A DNA stretch of 64,000 nt. It comes from Gaiella occulta. Its GTDB lineage: Bacteria > Actinomycetota > Thermoleophilia > Gaiellales > Gaiellaceae. The position numbers and the translations under genes were made by a program. The notes below the pieces were generated by a model, which saw only the letters and a list, made by a program, of their open reading frames with translations, made no database searches and was not told the DNA's origin. The stretch's first letter is position 1. Each line of letters starts with the position of its first letter. The stretch covers positions 434,001 through 498,000 of the forward strand of contig NZ_QQZY01000001.1 of the NCBI RefSeq assembly GCF_003351045.1, in the 5' to 3' direction. Shown here piece after piece: positions 7,173-58,880 of the stretch.

Positions 7173-7195
7173 GGCGTCGAACGGGCCTTCCACGG

Positions 7196-7218
7196 GGCGC
7201 CCGCGCCGAGCGGGCGCC
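7196..7218. terminator. Perfect 9-bp hairpin between convergent genes
   Basis: GGCGCCCGC, a 5-nt loop, then GCGGGCGCC. It lies between the acidic small ORF (+) and the 3' end of the thiamine ABC ATPase gene (-), so it can serve as a bidirectional terminator. There is no T-run, as is common in high-GC actinobacteria. Confidence 0.6.
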
Positions 7219-7228
7219 GGGCCGCCGG

Positions 7229-8182
7229 CTATGCGCGCGGGATCTCGACCACCCCCGCCGGGTCGATGTCGACGCGGACGCGCTCGCCCGGCGCGGGGTG
7301 GTCGACGCCCGTCGCCGCCGCCTCGATCGCGCGCCCGTCGTCGAGCTGCGCGCGCAGCCGTACGAGCGGGCCGTCTCGCTCCACCGCGGAGACGACCGCT
7401 CCTCCCGCCGGGTCGGCGACGAGCCGCACGGCCTCCGGCCGGGTGACGCGGACGACGGAGCCGTCCTCCTCGACGTTCGCGAGCCCGAGGAAGCGGGCGA
7501 CCCACGCGTCGGCGGGCTGCGACCACAGCGTGTCCGGCTGCGCGACCTGGACGACACGGCCCGCGCGCATCACGGCCACCCGGTGTCCGACGGCAAACGC
7601 CTCGCCGGCGTCGTGCGTCACGTAGACGACCGTGAGGCCGAGCGCGGAGAACACGGCGCGCAGCTCCTCGAGCAGCCGGTCGTGCAGCGGGCGGTCGAGG
7701 GCGCCGAGCGGCTCGTCGAGCAGCAGCACGCGCGGGGCGGGGGCGAGTGCCCGCGCGAGCGCGACGCGCTTGCGCTCGCCGCCCGAGAGCGTCGCCACCC
7801 GGCGCCGCTCGAGCCCGGCGAGCCCGACGAGGTCGAGCAGCTCGGCGACGCGGCGCGCCGCGGCGGCGTCGCTCGCGCCGGCCATGCGGAGGCCGAACGC
7901 GATGTTCCCCGCGACGTCGCGGTGCGGGAAGAGGGCGTCGTCCTGGAACATCAGCCCGACGCCGCGGCGGTGCGCGGGCACGCTCGTGACGTCCTGCCCG
8001 TCGATGTGCACGGTGCCGCCGTCGAGCCGCTGGAGGCCGGCCACGGCGCGCAGCAGCGTCGACTTCCCGCAGCCGCTCGGCCCGAGCACCGCCGTCGTCT
8101 CGCCGCGCCCGACCTCGAGATCGACGTCGTCGACGGCGGCGCGCCCGGCGAAGACGACCCGCGCGCCTGCGATGCGGAGCAT
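7229..8182 (-). CDS. ABC transporter ATP-binding protein, thiamine uptake (ThiQ-like)
   Basis: The energy-coupling subunit of the importer encoded with ThiP- and ThiB-like genes. Walker A is [11 protein letters not shown] (about residue 34), the signature is LSGGERKRVALARAL, Walker B is VLLLDEPLGALD, and the H-loop is VTHDAGEA. At 317 residues it is longer than enterobacterial ThiQ; the last 90 residues look like a TOBE regulatory domain. The stop of thiP is 1 nt upstream. Thiamine specificity is inferred from the upstream TPP riboswitch and the pyrophosphokinase in the same operon. Confidence 0.88.
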   Translation of the reverse strand: MLRIAGARVVFAGRAAVDDVDLEVGRGETTAVLGPSGCGKSTLLRAVAGLQRLDGGTVHIDGQDVTSVPAHRRGVGLMFQDDALFPHRDVAGNIAFGLRMAGASDAAAARRVAELLDLVGLAGLERRRVATLSGGERKRVALARALAPAPRVLLLDEPLGALDRPLHDRLLEELRAVFSALGLTVVYVTHDAGEAFAVGHRVAVMRAGRVVQVAQPDTLWSQPADAWVARFLGLANVEEDGSVVRVTRPEAVRLVADPAGGAVVSAVERDGPLVRLRAQLDDGRAIEAAATGVDHPAPGERVRVDIDPAGVVEIPRA

Positions 8183-9754
8183 CTAGATCGCCCCTCGGCG
8201 CCCGGCCGCGGCCCGCTCCGCAGCGAGCGCGGCGGCCACCGCGACGGCGGCCAGGAGCACCGCGAGCGCCGCCGCGAGCTGCTGGTTCTCGGCGCCCGGA
8301 CGCCCGAGGAAGCGGAAGATCGCCACCGGCAGCGTCGGCCGGTCGGCGCGCGCGAGGAACACCGTCGCCCCGAACTCACCGAGGGCGATCGCGAAGGCGA
8401 AGCCCGCGGCGGTCGCGATCGCCCGCGCCGCGAGCGGCAGGTCGATCTCCCGCCGGGCGCGGGCGGGCGTGGCGCCGAGCACCGCCGCGGCCTCGCGCAA
8501 GCGCGGGTCGATCGCGCGCAGCGCGGGAGTGACGATGCGGATCACGAACGGCATCGCGACGAGCGACTGCGCCACGGGCACGAGCCACCACTGCGAGCGG
8601 AAGTCGAGCGGCGGGCTGTCGAACGCGATGAGGAAGCCGAAGCCGAGCATCACCGCCGACGCCCCGAGGGGGAGCAGCACGAGGGCGTCCGCCGCGCCGG
8701 GCCGGGCGTCCGCGAGCGCGGCGGCGGCGAGCGTCCCCGCGGCCACCGCGATCGCCGCCGCCGCCGCCGCGAACAGGACGGAGTTCACCGCCGCATGCCA
8801 GGGCGTGACGAGCAGCGCCGGCGTCTCGCGCAGGAGCCCTTCGTAGCCTCCGAGCGAGCGCTGCACGAGCACGGCGAAGGGCAGCCCGAGGGCGACGGCG
8901 GCGCCGCCCAGCACCGCCGCGACCGCGATGCGCTCGCGGCCGGCGGGCCGCCGCAGCGCGTCCGCGCCGGCCGCCGCCGCGCCGACGCCGGCCACCCGCG
9001 ATTCGAGCCTGCTCGCGACCACGAGGACGGCGGCGACGGCGGCGAGCTGGAGCAGCGACAGCGCCGCCGCCGCGCGCAGGTCGAAGGCGCGGGCGGCCTG
9101 GTTGTAGATCTCCGTCTCGAGCGTCGCCCGCCCGGGGCCGCCGAGGATCAGCACGACCCCGAACGACGTGAAGCAGAAGAGGAACGTGAGCGCCGCGGAC
9201 GCCGACACGGCGGGCGCGAGCAGCGGCAGCGTCACCTCTCGCAGCCGCCGCAGCGGCCCCGCGCCGAGCGTGGCGGCGACGTCCCACTCCGTCCGGTCGA
9301 GCCCTGCCCAGGCGCCGCCGACGATTCGCGTGACGACGGCGATGTTGAAGGTGGCGTGTGCCGCCAGGATGGCCCAGATGCCGTGCTCGAGGCCCGCGGG
9401 CAGGAGCGCCAGGAAGGCGGTGGCGACGACGACGGTGGGGAGGACGAACGGCACCAGCACGAGCGCGCGCACGAGGCCGCGCCCGCGGAACGAGAACCGC
9501 CCGACGACCCAGGCGAGCGGCAGGCCGAATGCCAGCGTGACGGCCGTCGACGCCGCCGCCTGCCACGTCGTGAACCAGAGCAGCAGGGCGGTCTCCGGCG
9601 AGAGCAGCACGTCGGAGGGGAACGAGAGGCCGCCGGAGTCGACGAGGCCGCGGCGCACGATCGCGGCGAGCGGCAGCACGAAGAACACCGCCGCGAACAG
9701 CGCCGGGACGGCCGCTGCGGCGGTGCGCCTCAGCGCAGCACGATGCGCGTCCAC
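8183..9754 (-). CDS. Thiamine ABC transporter permease (ThiP-like, fused two-domain)
   Basis: A 523-residue membrane protein with about twelve hydrophobic segments in two homologous halves, as in ThiP/FbpB permeases. Each half has the EAA loop contacting the ATPase: EWDVAATLGAGPLRRLREV in the first and REAAAVLGATPARARREI in the second. The chosen GTG overlaps the 3' end of the thiB-like gene by 25 nt. Much longer open frames exist upstream but run antisense to sense genes. It should form the channel that takes thiamine from the lipoprotein. Confidence 0.87.
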   Translation of the reverse strand: MDAHRAALRRTAAAAVPALFAAVFFVLPLAAIVRRGLVDSGGLSFPSDVLLSPETALLLWFTTWQAAASTAVTLAFGLPLAWVVGRFSFRGRGLVRALVLVPFVLPTVVVATAFLALLPAGLEHGIWAILAAHATFNIAVVTRIVGGAWAGLDRTEWDVAATLGAGPLRRLREVTLPLLAPAVSASAALTFLFCFTSFGVVLILGGPGRATLETEIYNQAARAFDLRAAAALSLLQLAAVAAVLVVASRLESRVAGVGAAAAGADALRRPAGRERIAVAAVLGGAAVALGLPFAVLVQRSLGGYEGLLRETPALLVTPWHAAVNSVLFAAAAAAIAVAAGTLAAAALADARPGAADALVLLPLGASAVMLGFGFLIAFDSPPLDFRSQWWLVPVAQSLVAMPFVIRIVTPALRAIDPRLREAAAVLGATPARARREIDLPLAARAIATAAGFAFAIALGEFGATVFLARADRPTLPVAIFRFLGRPGAENQQLAAALAVLLAAVAVAAALAAERAAAGRRGAI

Positions 9755-50526: not shown

Positions 50527-51696
50527 TCAGGCGTCGAGCAGCTTGCGGATGCCGCGCACGGCCTGGCCGATGCGGTGCTCGTTCTCGACGAGCGCGAAGC
50601 GCACGAACGCGTCGCCGTCAGCGCCGAAGCCGATGCCGGGCGAGACGGCCACGCTCGCCTCGCGCGCCAGCTTCTCCGCGAACGCGAGCGAGCCGAGCGG
50701 GCGGAAGCGCTCGGGGATCGGCGCCCACACGAACATCGTCCCCTTCGGCCGCGGGAACGACCAGCCCGCCCGCTCGAGCCCGTCGCAGAGCGCGTCGCGG
50801 CGCGACTGGTAGATCGCCGCCACTTCCCGCGGGTAGCCGGGCAGCTCGTTCATCGCCACGATCGCCGCGATCTGGATCGGCTGGAAGGTGCCGTAGTCGA
50901 GCCACGACTTGAGCCGGGCCAGCGCCGCGACGACGTCGCGGTTGCCGACGACGAAGCCGACCCGCCAGCCCGCCATCGAGAACGACTTCGTCAGGGTGTA
51001 CAGCTCCACCGCCACCTCGCGGGCGCCCGGCACCTGCAGGATCGAGGGCGGCGCGTAGCCGTCGAAGGCGAGGTCGGCGTAGGCGAAGTCGTGCACCACG
51101 AGCAGCTCGTGCTCGCGCGCGAAGTCGACGACGCGCTGCATGAACGCGAGGTCGACGGTGGCGGTCGTCGGGTTGTGCGGGAAGGAGAGGATGACGACGC
51201 GGGGCTTCGGCTGCGCCCGCTCCCACGCCTCCTCCAGGTTCGCGAACAGATCCTCGTCGGCGCCCATCGGCACGCGTGTCACCGAGGCGCCCGCGAGGAT
51301 CGGCGCGTGGATGTGGATCGGGTAGCTGGGGCTCGGTACGAGAGCCGAGTCACCCGGCTCGAGCAGCACCCACATCAGGTGCGAGAGCCCTTCCTTGGCA
51401 CCGATCGTGTTCAGCACCTCGGTCTCGGGGTCGAGCTCGACCGCGAAGGTGCGCCGGTAGAGGTTCGCGCACGCGAGCCGCAGGTTCGGGATCCCCTTCG
51501 AGGCCGAATAGCGGTGGTTGCGCGGATTGTGAGCCGCCTCCGCGAGCTTCTCGACGGCGAGGACGGGCGAGGGGAGGTCGGGGTTGCCGAAGCCGAGATC
51601 GACGACGTCGTCGCCGGCGCGGCGCAGCTCGAGCGTGAGGTCGCGGATGACCGCGAACACGTAGGGGGGAAGGCTGTCGACCCGGCGGAACTCCAC
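50527..51696 (-). CDS. PLP-dependent aminotransferase, AlaC-like
   Basis: A 389-residue class I aminotransferase: [83 protein letters not shown], and the PLP lysine in [14 protein letters not shown]. These motifs match glutamate-pyruvate aminotransferase AlaC more closely than AspC. The GTG start shares one base with the cobA stop. Last gene of the sulfur operon; perhaps it supplies or uses keto acids linked to Cys/Met synthesis. Confidence 0.85.
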
Positions 51697-52418
51697 TACG
51701 CGACGAGTCTCGCAGACGCGGCCGCGTCGAGGCTCACTCCCACCGACACGACGTCGCCGACGACCACGAGCGCCGGCGAGGCGAGTCCCTCCGCGAGACC
51801 CGCCACATCGGCGAGCGTGCCGGTCACCGTCTCCTGGTCGGGCAGCGTGCCGCGCGAGACGACCGCGGTGGGCGTCGAGCCCGGCAGCCCCGCGGCGACG
51901 AGGCCCGCGCACAGCCGCGGCAGCCGCTCCAGGCCCATGAAGAGGACGAGCGTGCCGCCGGCCGCGGCGAGCGCCCCGTACTCGGGCTCGCCGCCGCCCG
52001 CGCCGTGGCCGCTCGCGATCGTGACCCGGTCGGCGACACCGCGATGGGTCACCGGGATCAGCGCCGCGGCCGGCACGGCCGCGATCGACGAGACCCCCGG
52101 GACGACGTCGAACGGGACGCCCGCCTCGGCGAGCGCGAGCGCCTCCTCGCCGCCGCGGCCGAACACGAACGGGTCGCCGCCCTTCAGCCGCACGACGTCG
52201 AAGCCGGCCGAGCCGTAGGCGACGAGCAGCCGGTTGATCTCCTCCTGCCCCATGCCGGCGCGCGAGACGACGAGGGCCTCCTCCGGCGCCTCGGCGACGA
52301 GCTCCTGCGCGACGAGCTCGTCGACGACGAGCACGTCGCACGAGCGGACGAGCTCGAGCCCGCGGGCGGTGATCAGGCCGGGATCGCCCGGGCCGGCGCC
52401 GACGAGGTGCACGCTCAC
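51696..52418 (-). CDS. cobA: Uroporphyrinogen-III C-methyltransferase
   Basis: Makes precorrin-2 from uroporphyrinogen III with two SAM. A 240-residue protein: [72 protein letters not shown]. These are the SUMT signatures ([16 protein letters not shown]). GTG start in a 4-nt overlap with the dehydrogenase gene. It supplies siroheme for the sulfite reductase in this operon. Confidence 0.94.
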
Positions 52419-52978
52419 CCGAGCGCCTCGGCCACGAGGCCGGCGAAGTACGCCTTGCGTTCCTCGTAGGTGGCGAAGTGCGACTGCGCGAACGGCCGCA
52501 ACGCGCGCAGCCGCCGCGCGAGGTCGGCGTGCTCGGGCCGCACGACCGCGGCGATCTCGTCGCGCAGGCGCTGGGCGAGCGCGGGGGAGGCGCCGCCGGT
52601 CGAGACGGCGACCGCGATCGGGTCGTGCCGGTGCACGGCGGGGAGGATGAACGAGCACAGCTCGGGCACGTCGACGACGTTGCACAGCTGCGCGCGCGCC
52701 TCCGCGTCGCGGAACACGCGGCGGTTCACCGAGGTCGTCGAGGTGGCGGCGACGACGAGGAAGCGCCCGTCCAGATCCTCGCTGCGGTACCCGCGCCGCA
52801 CGAGCGTCACGGCGAGCCGCGTGAGCTCGGGCACGACCTGCGGAGCGACGACGGTGACGTCGGCGCCGGACGCGAGCAGCCCTTCGACCTTCTCGAGCGC
52901 CACCCGGCCGCCCCCGACGACGAGCACGCTGCGCCCGGTCAGGTCGAGGCACGCCATGTAGTAGCGCGGGCCGTCCAC
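52415..52978 (-). CDS. Precorrin-2 dehydrogenase (CysG N-terminal / SirC type)
   Basis: A 187-residue Rossmann protein: [93 protein letters not shown]. Oxidises precorrin-2 to sirohydrochlorin; iron insertion may also occur here, as in CysG/Met8, or elsewhere. The second Asp of the usual NVVDD is Val, so the chelatase role is doubtful. Confidence 0.9.
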
Positions 52979-52979
52979 G

Positions 52980-53453
52980 TCAAACCTCCACCGACGCGAG
53001 CCGCGCGCCCTGGCGGTCGAGGCGGACGGACAGCGACGCCTCGTCGGTCGTCAACGAGAGGGTGAACGATCCCGGGCCGATCGCCGTCAGCGTCGCGCTC
53101 TCGAGCGCGCGGCCGCGCAGGGACGCGAGCGCGTCGGTCACCTCCCTCGCGCTCTCGGCCAGGGCCGCGCCCCGCGGCAGCTTGCGGTACAGGCGCAGCG
53201 CCGCCTGCTCGCCGGGCGGCCCGTAGACGGCGCGGATGCGGCCCGCCTGCAGGCCGAGCTCGACGATGCGCTCGAGCGAGGTCGCGTGGCTCTCGTCGAG
53301 CACGCCCTGCTCGAGCGCGAGCTCGAGCGACGAGAGCTCGCTGCGCGTCTGCGGGCGCGCGGCGGCGTCGAGCACCGCCCGCGTCTCGGCGAGCGCCACC
53401 TCGCGCTCGGCCTCCGACAGGCGGATGCCCTCCCCGGCTCCGTGCTCACTCAT
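52980..53453 (-). CDS. Unknown protein embedded in the sulfur-assimilation operon
   Basis: A 157-residue protein, helical in the first half (LSEAEREVALAETRAVLDAA, LSSLELALEQGVLDESHATS) and beta-like in the second (TLTAIGPGSFTLSLTTDEAS, LSVRLDRQGARLASVEV). Its start overlaps the cysH stop by 8 nt and its stop is 1 nt before the dehydrogenase gene, so it is made stoichiometrically with them. No Cys, so not a redox carrier. Possibly an assembly or regulatory factor for the reductases. Confidence 0.65.
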   Translation of the reverse strand: MSEHGAGEGIRLSEAEREVALAETRAVLDAAARPQTRSELSSLELALEQGVLDESHATSLERIVELGLQAGRIRAVYGPPGEQAALRLYRKLPRGAALAESAREVTDALASLRGRALESATLTAIGPGSFTLSLTTDEASLSVRLDRQGARLASVEV

Positions 53454-54231
53454 GCCTGTCCTCCCCGACGATCGCGTGCAGCTCGTGCTCGAAGCCGCCG
53501 GTCTCGATCGCGCAGTGCATGCCGCATTCCTTCGGCGCGCCGGTCTCCCACCACCAGCGCCCCGCCCGCACCGGCTCGCCTGCTGCGACCGGCCGCGTGC
53601 ACGGCAGGCAGCCGATCGACGTATAGCCCTGGGCGTAGAGGGCGTGCGTGGGCACGTCGTACCGGCGCAGGTAGTCCCAGACGTCCTCCTCCGACCACTC
53701 GGCGAGCGGGTTCAGCTTCACGATCGCGCCGTGGTCGTGGTCGATCTCCACCTTGCGGATGTCGGAGCGCGACGCCCACTGGTCGCGCCGCAGGCCGGTC
53801 ACCCACGCGTCGAGCCCCGCGAGCACGCGCGTGAGCGGCTGCACCTTGCGAACGTTGCAGCACAGGAGCCGGTGCTCGACGGAGCGGTAGAAGAGGTTGG
53901 GCCCGTGGCGGTCGACGAGCCGTTGCACCTGCGCGGCGTCGGGGGAGAGCAGCTCGAGCCGCAGGCCCTCGTAGCGGTCGCGCAGCTGCTCGACGAGGTC
54001 GTGCGTCTCCTGCGGCAGGCGACCCGTGTCGATCGAGAACACACGGACGGCAGGATCGATCCGGTACGCCATGTCGATCAGCGCCACGTCGCCTTCCTGG
54101 AACGCGGTCGAGAGCGCGAGCCCTCCTCCGAAGCGCTCGATCGCCCACTCGAGCACCTCCCAGGGCTCCTGCCCCTCGAACTCGACCGACAGCTCGCCGG
54201 CCTCCAGCTCGTCGATGAGATCGACGCTCAT
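53446..54231 (-). CDS. cysH: Assimilatory adenylyl-sulfate reductase (APS reductase, Fe-S type)
   Basis: A 261-residue protein reducing APS to sulfite. SIDTGRLPQETHDLV is the PP-loop-like substrate region; the four Fe-S cysteines occur as LLCCNVRKVQPL and SIGCLPCTRPV; ECGMHC carries the catalytic Cys near the C-terminus. The CC/CxxC set distinguishes the APS-type from the E. coli PAPS-type. Overlaps the sulfite-reductase stop by 4 nt. Confidence 0.94.
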   Translation of the reverse strand: MSVDLIDELEAGELSVEFEGQEPWEVLEWAIERFGGGLALSTAFQEGDVALIDMAYRIDPAVRVFSIDTGRLPQETHDLVEQLRDRYEGLRLELLSPDAAQVQRLVDRHGPNLFYRSVEHRLLCCNVRKVQPLTRVLAGLDAWVTGLRRDQWASRSDIRKVEIDHDHGAIVKLNPLAEWSEEDVWDYLRRYDVPTHALYAQGYTSIGCLPCTRPVAAGEPVRAGRWWWETGAPKECGMHCAIETGGFEHELHAIVGEDRHE

Positions 54232-55868
54232 GCTGCCTCCTCTTCTTCCCGGCGCGATCGGGCCGGCTCCCGGCCGATGAGGACGCCGAGCTCGTCGTCC
54301 GTGTGGCGGTCGCAGAACGACCGGAAGCTCTCCCCGCCGTCGCGGCCGCCGAGCCAGCCCGCGACCAGGCCCTCGACTGCCGCGTCGAGCTCCTCGCTGG
54401 GTACGCGGCGGAAGACGGGCCGGCCGATCGCAGCCTGCGGCCCGAGCGCGCCGCGCAGCAGCACGTCGTAGGCCTGGCGGCGCTTGCCCTCGGCGTCGCG
54501 CACCGTCGTGCCCTGGAAGCCGATGTCGCCGACCCAGTGCTGCCCGCAGGCGTGCGGGCAGCCGTCGAGATGGAGGCGCAGGCCGGCGACGTCGTCGCCG
54601 AAGCGCCCCTCGAGGTGCTCGATGAGGCGGCCGAGGCGGCTCTTCGTCTCGGTCACGGCGAAGTTGCAGTGCGGTTCGCCCGTGCAGCCGATCGAGCTGC
54701 CGCGCAGGCGGTTCGCATCGACAGGGAAGCCGATCTCGGCGAGCCCGGAGACGACGTCGTCGAGCGCGCCGTCGGACACGCCCGTGAGTACGAGGTTCTG
54801 CTGGCGCGTGACCCGGACGTCGCCCTCCCCGGCGAGACGGGCCGCGGCGATCATCTGGTCGCCCGAGATCAGGCCCAGGTGCACGGGCGCCCCGACGGAG
54901 CTTGTCCCCGGCTCGTGCTGGGGCTCGACGCCCATGTGGTCGGACGGCTCGCGCTCGAGCGCGGGCAGCGTGAAGTCGGGCAGCGCGTAGCCGAGGCGCC
55001 GCTCGACCTCCGCGCGCATCCCGTCGGCGCCCCGGTCGTCGACCATGAACTTCATCCGCGCCTTCACCCGCGAGATGCGGTAGCGCAGATCCTCCTTCCA
55101 CGCGTCGAGGAGGGCCCGCAGCACGGGCAGCGCCTCGTCGGGACGCACCCACACGCCCAGCTCGCGCGCGAGGCGCGGCACGGAGGAGAGGCCGCCGCCG
55201 ACGAGCACCGCGAATCCCGGCGCGCCGTCGCGCAACGCGCCGACGAGCGAGATGCAGTTGATCTCCGGCGCGTTGCAACGGTGCGCGCACGCGGCCACCG
55301 TGATCTTGTGCTTGCGCGGCAGGTCGGAGTAGTCGGGGTTGCCGTAGAAGAACGACGTGATCTCGGCCGTGAGCTCCGTCACGTCGAAGAGCTCGTCGCG
55401 GGCGAGGCCGGCGACGGGGCAGCCGGTCACGTTGCGCACCGCGTCGCCGCAGGCGCCGACCGTGGTCAGCCCGACGTCGCGCAGACGCGCGAACACCAGG
55501 GGGAGGGAGGCGAGCTCGAGGTAGTGGAGCTGGATCGTCTGGCGGGTCGTCAGCTCTCCCGCGCCGCGGCCGTGCTCGTTCGAGAGCTCGCCGACGGCGT
55601 GCAGCTGCTGCGGCGTGATGCGCCCGGCCGGCAGCTTGATGCGCAGCATGAACGTTCCGACCTTCGGCTTGTCGTGGTAGAGGCCCCACCACTTCAGCCG
55701 CACGATGTCCTCCTCGGCGATGTCGGCGTAGCCGGTCGCGATCAGCGCCGGCAGCTCGTCGAGCATCACGAGCGGGCTCTTCTCGCGCTTGAGCCGCTCC
55801 TGCGGGTTGCGCCTGAGCACGAGCTCGAGGGTGGGTTCCTCCATCACCGTCCGGGCGCCCTGCGCCAT
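54228..55868 (-). CDS. sir: Sulfite reductase, siroheme/4Fe-4S, ferredoxin-type
   Basis: A 546-residue enzyme reducing sulfite to sulfide. Two ferredoxin-like repeats and two siroheme domains: LKWWGLYHDKPKVGTFMLRI, GELTTRQTIQLHYLEL, RNVTGCPVAGL in the first; VRVTRQQNLVLTG and the cluster ligands GCTGEPHCNF and GCPHACGQHW in the second. ATG 55868 follows GAGGAGG. A nitrite-reductase function is not excluded by motifs, but the operon (APS reductase, siroheme genes, SAM riboswitch) points to sulfite. Confidence 0.93.
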   Translation of the reverse strand: MAQGARTVMEEPTLELVLRRNPQERLKREKSPLVMLDELPALIATGYADIAEEDIVRLKWWGLYHDKPKVGTFMLRIKLPAGRITPQQLHAVGELSNEHGRGAGELTTRQTIQLHYLELASLPLVFARLRDVGLTTVGACGDAVRNVTGCPVAGLARDELFDVTELTAEITSFFYGNPDYSDLPRKHKITVAACAHRCNAPEINCISLVGALRDGAPGFAVLVGGGLSSVPRLARELGVWVRPDEALPVLRALLDAWKEDLRYRISRVKARMKFMVDDRGADGMRAEVERRLGYALPDFTLPALEREPSDHMGVEPQHEPGTSSVGAPVHLGLISGDQMIAAARLAGEGDVRVTRQQNLVLTGVSDGALDDVVSGLAEIGFPVDANRLRGSSIGCTGEPHCNFAVTETKSRLGRLIEHLEGRFGDDVAGLRLHLDGCPHACGQHWVGDIGFQGTTVRDAEGKRRQAYDVLLRGALGPQAAIGRPVFRRVPSEELDAAVEGLVAGWLGGRDGGESFRSFCDRHTDDELGVLIGREPARSRREEEEAA

Positions 55869-55899: not shown

Positions 55900-55946
55900 G
55901 CCCCGTGTCCCGGAGCCCTGGACGGCGCCTGCGGCGCCTGCGCCTC

Positions 55947-56066
55947 GCCATCTTCCCGTCTGCCGCCCCGGGTCGGACGGCTCGCGGCTGGAGTTCGCAC
56001 CTGACGGACGGTCGTCCCGGTTGCGGCGGTGTCGTCGGGCCAGGTCCCTCTACCGCTCGCGATGGC
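55947..56066 (-). ncRNA. SAM riboswitch upstream of the sir-cysH-siroheme operon
   Basis: Minus strand: P1 arm GCCATC, then GAGGGACCTGGCCCGACGAC, CCGCCGCAACCGGGAC, AGGTGCGAACTCCAGCC, and GGGAAGATGGC closing P1. The elements (GGGAC.UGGCCC, GCAACC, GGUGC-AA-UCC, GAAGAUG) are those of the S-box/SAM-I clan. Bound SAM should reduce expression of the sulfite/sulfide pathway. Confidence 0.92.
55978..56043. repeat. 66-nt identical core of SAM riboswitch 1
   Basis: Identical over 66 nt to 58687-58752, covering helices and also loops free to vary in this riboswitch class. Suggests recent duplication or gene conversion. Confidence 0.9.
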
Positions 56067-56114
56067 TAACGCTTCTGAATGTATAGCAACGATACTTCCG
56101 AAATACAAGTAACG

Positions 56115-58546: not shown

Positions 58547-58657
58547 GAAGCGCTCCTCTCCGCCTGCCGGCGATGGTGGTGTCCCGGGAACGGCGAAGGC
58601 CCCTGACGTCGAGTCCCGGGCCTCCAGTGCTCCCGCCGGCGGCGGGTGCTGCGCCTT

Positions 58658-58774
58658 CCATCTTCCCGCTCACCGCCCGGGACGGCCGGCTCGCGGCTGG
58701 AGTTCGCACCTGACGGACGGTCGTCCCGGTTGCGGCGGTGTCGTCGGGCCAGATCCCTGAACCGCTCGTGATGG
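58658..58774 (-). ncRNA. SAM riboswitch upstream of metY-metX
   Basis: Minus strand: P1 arm CCATC, then CAGGGATCTGGCCCGACGAC, GCCGCAACCGGG, AGGTGCGAACTCCAGCC, GGGAAGATGG. Same clan as the copy at 55947-56066. The following leader (58657-58547) can form AGGCCC/GGGCCT, a possible expression platform. Confidence 0.92.
58687..58752. repeat. 66-nt identical core of SAM riboswitch 2
   Basis: Perfect match to 55978-56043; see that entry. Confidence 0.9.
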
Positions 58775-58880
58775 TCAACGCTTCACTTTGGAAAGTAACA
58801 CACGAGGGCGGCCCGCGTGGCGGTTCCTCGGGGCGCGGGCCGCTCCGTGCGGCGCCCCCGCTTGGTATCCTTTCTCTCGT

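Follow-up and report, generated by a model that had tools for sequence, protein, structure and literature searches.

An undescribed protein family encoded directly behind cysH in sulfite-reduction operons, a possible partner of one lineage of APS/PAPS reductase

The window analysed here is a stretch of 64,000 nucleotides from the genome of Gaiella occulta. Its minus strand, to which all the window features below belong, carries in order metY, metX, a SAM riboswitch, sir, cysH, a small gene that we call X, a precorrin-2 dehydrogenase gene, cobA and an aminotransferase-like gene, where the metY, metX and aminotransferase labels are our own reading of the translations. The SAM-I riboswitch aptamer ahead of the sir-cysH-X operon lies at 55945..56068 (RF00162, 58.9 bits vs. 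44.4), and a second SAM-I riboswitch, at 58655-58777, precedes metY. The sir gene (54228..55868, with its start inferred downstream of the riboswitch) encodes a ferredoxin-type sulfite/nitrite reductase, Sir (PF01077 and PF03460). It is followed by cysH (53446..54231), encoding the APS/PAPS reductase (PF01507, E 3.6e-45; TIGR02055, 240.4 bits vs. a cut-off of 235.3), and by X (52980..53453). Downstream are the gene for a precorrin-2 dehydrogenase of the CysG N-terminal type (52415..52978; PF13241, TIGR01470) and that for a uroporphyrinogen-III C-methyltransferase, CobA/SUMT (51696..52418; PF00590, TIGR01469).

The genes are packed tightly. The sir and cysH genes overlap by 4 nt, as do the dehydrogenase gene and cobA; X overlaps cysH by 8 nt and is separated by a gap of 1 nt from the dehydrogenase gene, which starts with GTG at 52978. 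These coordinates agree with the sequence-only reading of this DNA, in which X overlapped cysH and abutted the siroheme dehydrogenase gene. Among 20 other X loci, some of which reach little beyond sir, a SAM-I riboswitch was found just upstream of sir in one from the same genus (L030) and elsewhere in another (L051), and the remaining 18 had none. CysG-N may itself be a chelatase, as CysG is in E. coli. PF01903 (CbiX/SirB) had no match in the window's genome, in a search whose control detected the family in 11 of 14 genomes, so that the insertion of iron into siroheme is probably the work of the CysG-N protein or of some other enzyme.

The X reading frame begins with ATG and encodes 157 amino acid residues, among them no Cys and no Trp, with a pI of 5.2. 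No family in Pfam or NCBIfam matched X at E values up to 1, and a search of PDB sequences with the X profile was likewise without a match. For four more distant members, Pfam returned only two sub-threshold matches, to HU-HIG and HTH_29 (E ~0.06), both in the same protein. The initial description of X as having neither a recognised family nor a Cys is therefore borne out by the database searches and the residue count. AlphaFold2 models X (mean pLDDT 91.3) with five helices, after which comes a sheet of four strands. Neither Foldseek (best E 0.063) nor VIA-align yielded a convincing structural relative; the best Z of the latter was 5.6, and nearly all of its rows cover about residues 100-157, so that the helical part was barely compared. 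That X is a chance open reading frame is ruled out by its strong homologues, by dN/dS values of 0.035-0.52 across ten pairs (computed with our own script) and by the confident model. An origin as a phage gene was rejected; phage records gave no match.

X is a real, conserved gene family. It was found in 9 of 61 relatives. The search of the class (399 genomes) gave 25 strong homologues with E ≤ 4.9e-12, and that of the phylum (396 genomes) gave 12 with E ≤ 4.5e-20, two of which were also in the class search; in both, the genomes were drawn from larger groups and at most nine candidates were scored per genome. When the classes to which two further X carriers belong were searched with profiles, 7 of 66 and 3 of 27 genomes proved to have X, and all of them were already in the phylum search. 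Left out of these counts are four of the 29 class matches (E 2.4e-5 to 6.6e-4), treated as chance, and four of the 16 phylum matches (E 0.0033 to 0.006). One of the weak class matches, L026, sits in our reading inside a helicase-like reading frame. A scan of all prokaryotes used motifs typical of the window's family, which divergent members would escape.

Within the family, X evolves much faster than its neighbour, with 65% identity for X vs. 90% for CysH in the same pair. Across 25 diverse members, L68, R74, P93 and L109 are invariant, and R72, E82 and G95 are among the nearly invariant positions. Cys is lacking from 29 of the 32 aligned proteins, that of the window included, and His from 8 of the 32, with no His conserved. 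In full-text literature searches, no title or abstract start among the matches listed describes an X-like protein, and we call the family new in that sense and no other: a new family within a known type of operon.

We compared 36 X loci: 25 from the class search, ten from other families and one on a plasmid, representing three actinobacterial classes and a planctomycete. In 35 of these, cysH lies directly upstream of X, overlapping it or within ~75 nt, and the 36th (L021) ends at a contig edge. The proposal that X is locked into the sulfite-reduction operon is thus strongly supported. Homologues lying mostly away from sulfur genes, which would have spoken against it, were looked for, and none of the 36 loci is away from sulfur genes or cysH. 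The siroheme genes behave differently. In the window's family, 23 of 25 loci have a gene for CysG-N after X. Of the other two, L025 is cut by a contig end, and L010 has no cysG after X. Judged by its matching sequence, L010 is evidently the same place as L031 (Candidatus Gaiellasilicea, Gaiellaceae), where X is followed by leuC. In the other families, 7 of 10 loci lack siroheme genes next to X and keep cysH. Operons of cysH, cysG and cobA without X also exist. Siroheme genes are no constant neighbour of X.

The CysH of the window has the CC...CxxC residues and the catalytic ECGxH motif of known CysH enzymes (PF01507, TIGR02055; 2goy), and 2goy, an adenosine phosphosulfate reductase, is the closest solved structure by sequence. 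The same genome encodes a second, different CysH in a cysH-cysD-cysN cluster (L147, G000:C2:613000-632000), these gene names being our reading of the translations. Forty-five of the 61 relatives have a CysH match; the nine genomes with X are exactly those in which the match is 71-100% identical, whereas in the remaining 36 the only CysH is 37-44% identical and X is absent. In the phylum, a CysH at E ≤ 1e-60 was found in 35 of 396 genomes; ranked by this match, the top 12 coincide with the 12 genomes that have X. In the genomes searched, co-occurrence of X with one CysH lineage is thus strict (9/9 and 12/12). One family (f19) is divided: two genomes have X and the X-type CysH, and nine have another type of CysH and no X; the presence of X thus goes with the type of CysH rather than with the organism. 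In a tree of 64 CysH proteins, of which 25 are X-linked (15 from the window's family and ten others), 24 of these 25 fall into a single clade with support of 95/86, and the X label changes twice, vs. 20.1 times in shuffles. The exception is the X-linked CysH of f53 (L110), which groups weakly with the X-less ones.

Comparison of 25 X-linked CysH proteins with 18 X-less and 21 type B proteins shows where the lineage differs. Its specific positions are mostly in the N-terminus (9-23) and at or behind the catalytic Cys (232-256), with some between, such as A153, H165, D166 and Y199. In the window, the first segment, residues 9-23 with the lineage-specific L9, E10, G12, E22 and P23, is encoded at 54163..54207, and residues 234-255, which include the KECGMHC catalytic-Cys motif and the X-linked tail with GGFEHE, at 53467..53532. 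G245, E248, H249 and A253 are present in all 25 X-linked proteins. Among CysH proteins with a readable C-terminus, GG[FL]EH just after the catalytic Cys occurs in 35 of 35 with X, in 0 of 17 X-less and in 0 of 18 type B proteins, where the X-less loci are the 18 fetched of 23 X-less matches and the only plasmid protein counted is the X-linked one of Planctomyces; the closest X-less tail, that of L119, reads GGFEK. The second Cys of ECGxHC is not specific, occurring in 35 of 35 X-linked and also in 10 of 17 X-less proteins. In the model of the window CysH (pLDDT 91.3), residues 247-255 form a helix at ~pLDDT 70. Relative to known CysH enzymes, the X-linked lineage has a longer tail with GG[FL]EHE, N-terminal residues of its own and an extra product, X.

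A member of another phylum has the sir-cysH-X arrangement as a module: Planctomyces sp. SH-PL62 contains a plasmid (NZ_CP011276.1; L151, 48332-64775) that carries a nitrite/sulfite reductase gene, a phosphoadenylyl-sulfate reductase gene and X, the last annotated as a hypothetical protein, 33% identical over 148 residues. A sigma factor gene and a secretion protein gene flank the three, and the plasmid CysH has the same GG[FL]EH tail motif as the X-linked lineage. None of the 12 annotated features within 8 kb of the plasmid X is a siroheme gene, in a gene table that is incomplete. The 72,556 records searched contained no second X-bearing plasmid; seventeen other plasmids encode a CysH, of less than 60% identity.

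In CysH, the sulfo group is borne by the catalytic cysteine, which shuttles between active site and thioredoxin, and assimilatory APS reductase is regarded as a stand-alone enzyme served by thioredoxin. We suggest that X is a dedicated non-redox partner of one CysH lineage, docking on the ends of the enzyme and steering sulfite to Sir. The proposal is tentative, with a probability that we put at about 0.42. We read X as a partner of CysH because it is never seen off one CysH lineage, because its members share no redox or metal-binding residues, and because it goes together with extra elements, conserved in this lineage, at both CysH ends. A structural role fits X better than a redox or metal-binding one, since 29 of 32 members have no Cys and 8 of 32 no His.

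In the proposed mechanism, X and CysH of the window would probably be made by coupled translation from their overlapping stop and start codons. X would then dock on the elements peculiar to this lineage at the two ends of CysH, the C-terminal one being the putative short GG[FL]EHE helix behind the sulfo-carrying catalytic cysteine. By holding this mobile end, X could steer the release of sulfite, which might be handed over to the co-encoded sulfite reductase; such a hand-over is suggested by the presence of sir in the same operon. The binding of X to CysH, its stoichiometry and its role in the hand-over are what we infer. The correlation between tail and X may, however, reflect shared ancestry and not contact, since the tail marks a lineage.

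A partnership with Sir fits nearly as well, and the two are not told apart, because CysH and Sir are inherited together in the X-linked operon. X might, for example, be an adaptor between Sir and ferredoxin that owes its place behind cysH simply to the order of the operon. All X loci long enough to show it have sir upstream of cysH, and the X-linked Sir proteins are 49-79% identical to that of the window, vs. 25-39% for the Sir near an X-less CysH, where one was found. Moreover, four loci of the window's family have a gene for ferredoxin between X and cysG (L037:7457-7762, L033:7445-7687, L034:2128-2406 and L051:7437-7721, those of L033 and L051 being confirmed with Pfam), and its product is likely the electron donor for Sir. 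However, the ferredoxin gene is there only in some loci, X in the loci read always touches cysH and never sir, and the lineage-specific ends are on CysH. We regard Sir as a possible but not a probable partner.

In other families, the X-linked Sir has a feature of its own. A C-terminal ThiS domain, ending in or near GG, was found in four of four loci tested (L070:2203-4125, L071:2194-4161, L075:6387-8309 and L078:2134-4053), whereas Pfam finds no ThiS domain in the Sir of the window. Such fusions are already known: Iyer et al. (2006; PMC1779556) reported sulfite reductases fused to a ThiS-like sulfur carrier in actinobacteria and named Nocardioides and Acidothermus among the carriers. A fusion with a ThiS-type domain is common to both sets, and the available part of that paper does not mention an X-like gene.

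It is tempting to go one step further and to see X as the third part of a mobile sir-cysH-X module. As a subunit without catalytic activity, X would hold the sulfo-cysteine tail of CysH and pass newly formed sulfite on to Sir; in this lineage, sulfate would then be assimilated through an undescribed channelling complex, which would have reached the planctomycete plasmid as one cassette. This extended version we consider doubtful. Even a partner protein confined to one CysH lineage, with the tail right after the catalytic cysteine, would mean that the sulfite step is handled in a complex in part of the bacterial world. The sir-cysH-X genes make up a defined three-gene cassette, which includes a natural plasmid-borne example in a planctomycete.

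The constant linkage of X to an Fe-S enzyme could also point to a factor that inserts or protects the [4Fe-4S] cluster of CysH, the second guess of the sequence-only reading, and the CysH of the cysH-cysD-cysN cluster in the same genome could differ in its cluster needs. We find this unlikely. The CC...CxxC ligands are invariant in 42 aligned CysH proteins and are present in 18 of 18 X-less and 21 of 21 type B loci, so CysH proteins without X have the same ligands. X itself, with 29 of 32 members lacking Cys and no conserved His, is a poor candidate for cluster assembly, and the residues that set the X-linked CysH apart lie mostly at the protein ends, although A153, H165, D166 and Y199 do not.

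Less probable again is a regulator of sulfate reduction, a metabolite sensor that throttles CysH. The two-part build of X and its conserved Arg and Glu residues around R72, R74, E82 and R90 would suit such a role, and a SAM riboswitch already places the operon of the window under sulfur control, but neither Foldseek nor VIA-align recognised a ligand-binding fold. The earlier first guess, a factor for siroheme, with which we group the missing sirohydrochlorin ferrochelatase, draws on the cysG that follows X in the window's family and on the lack of an obvious chelatase in the window's genome, but is very improbable, given that cysG is missing beside X in L010, in seven of the ten other-family loci and among the annotated features of the plasmid, with cysH kept in all, that operons of cysH, cysG and cobA manage without X, that a quarter of the aligned members (8/32) have no His at all, and that CysG-N may itself be the chelatase.

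Several described kinds of protein were compared with X and rejected. CbiX/SirB sirohydrochlorin ferrochelatases have conserved metal-binding His residues, and X has no PF01903 match and members without His. NifU and A-type proteins, scaffolds or carriers of Fe-S clusters, have conserved cluster-binding Cys residues, and ferredoxin-like donors of the CysX type have Cys motifs for Fe-S clusters; the window X and 28 others of the 32 have no Cys. The sulfur-relay proteins DsrC and TusE have a conserved C-terminal Cys, and in X there is neither a conserved Cys nor a Pfam match.

Operons with a comparable layout are known in other actinobacteria. In Mycobacterium tuberculosis, the nirA-cysH-che1 operon has, like that of the window, genes for a sulfite reductase and CysH and then a small gene; che1 encodes a sirohydrochlorin chelatase, whereas X has no conserved His and no match to a chelatase family. 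The CysX protein of Corynebacterium glutamicum is a ferredoxin-like, cysteine-containing redox protein, and X differs from it in having no Cys. The C. glutamicum cluster fpr2-cysIXHDNYZ (PMC1266029) resembles that of the window in being a sulfite-reduction operon of an actinobacterium that encodes an additional small protein.

A few X loci have peculiarities of their own. The public record of L048 is titled Acidobacteriota, and misbinning or mislabelling is possible. L082 has a second, short match to the X profile, which is not due to chance: the corresponding region of L037 holds, behind cysG, ~58 bp of X in an exact inverted copy (approximately 7184-7241 and 8341-8398). This match is either a duplicated fragment or rearrangement or an assembly fault of the draft genome, and was not counted as an X gene.
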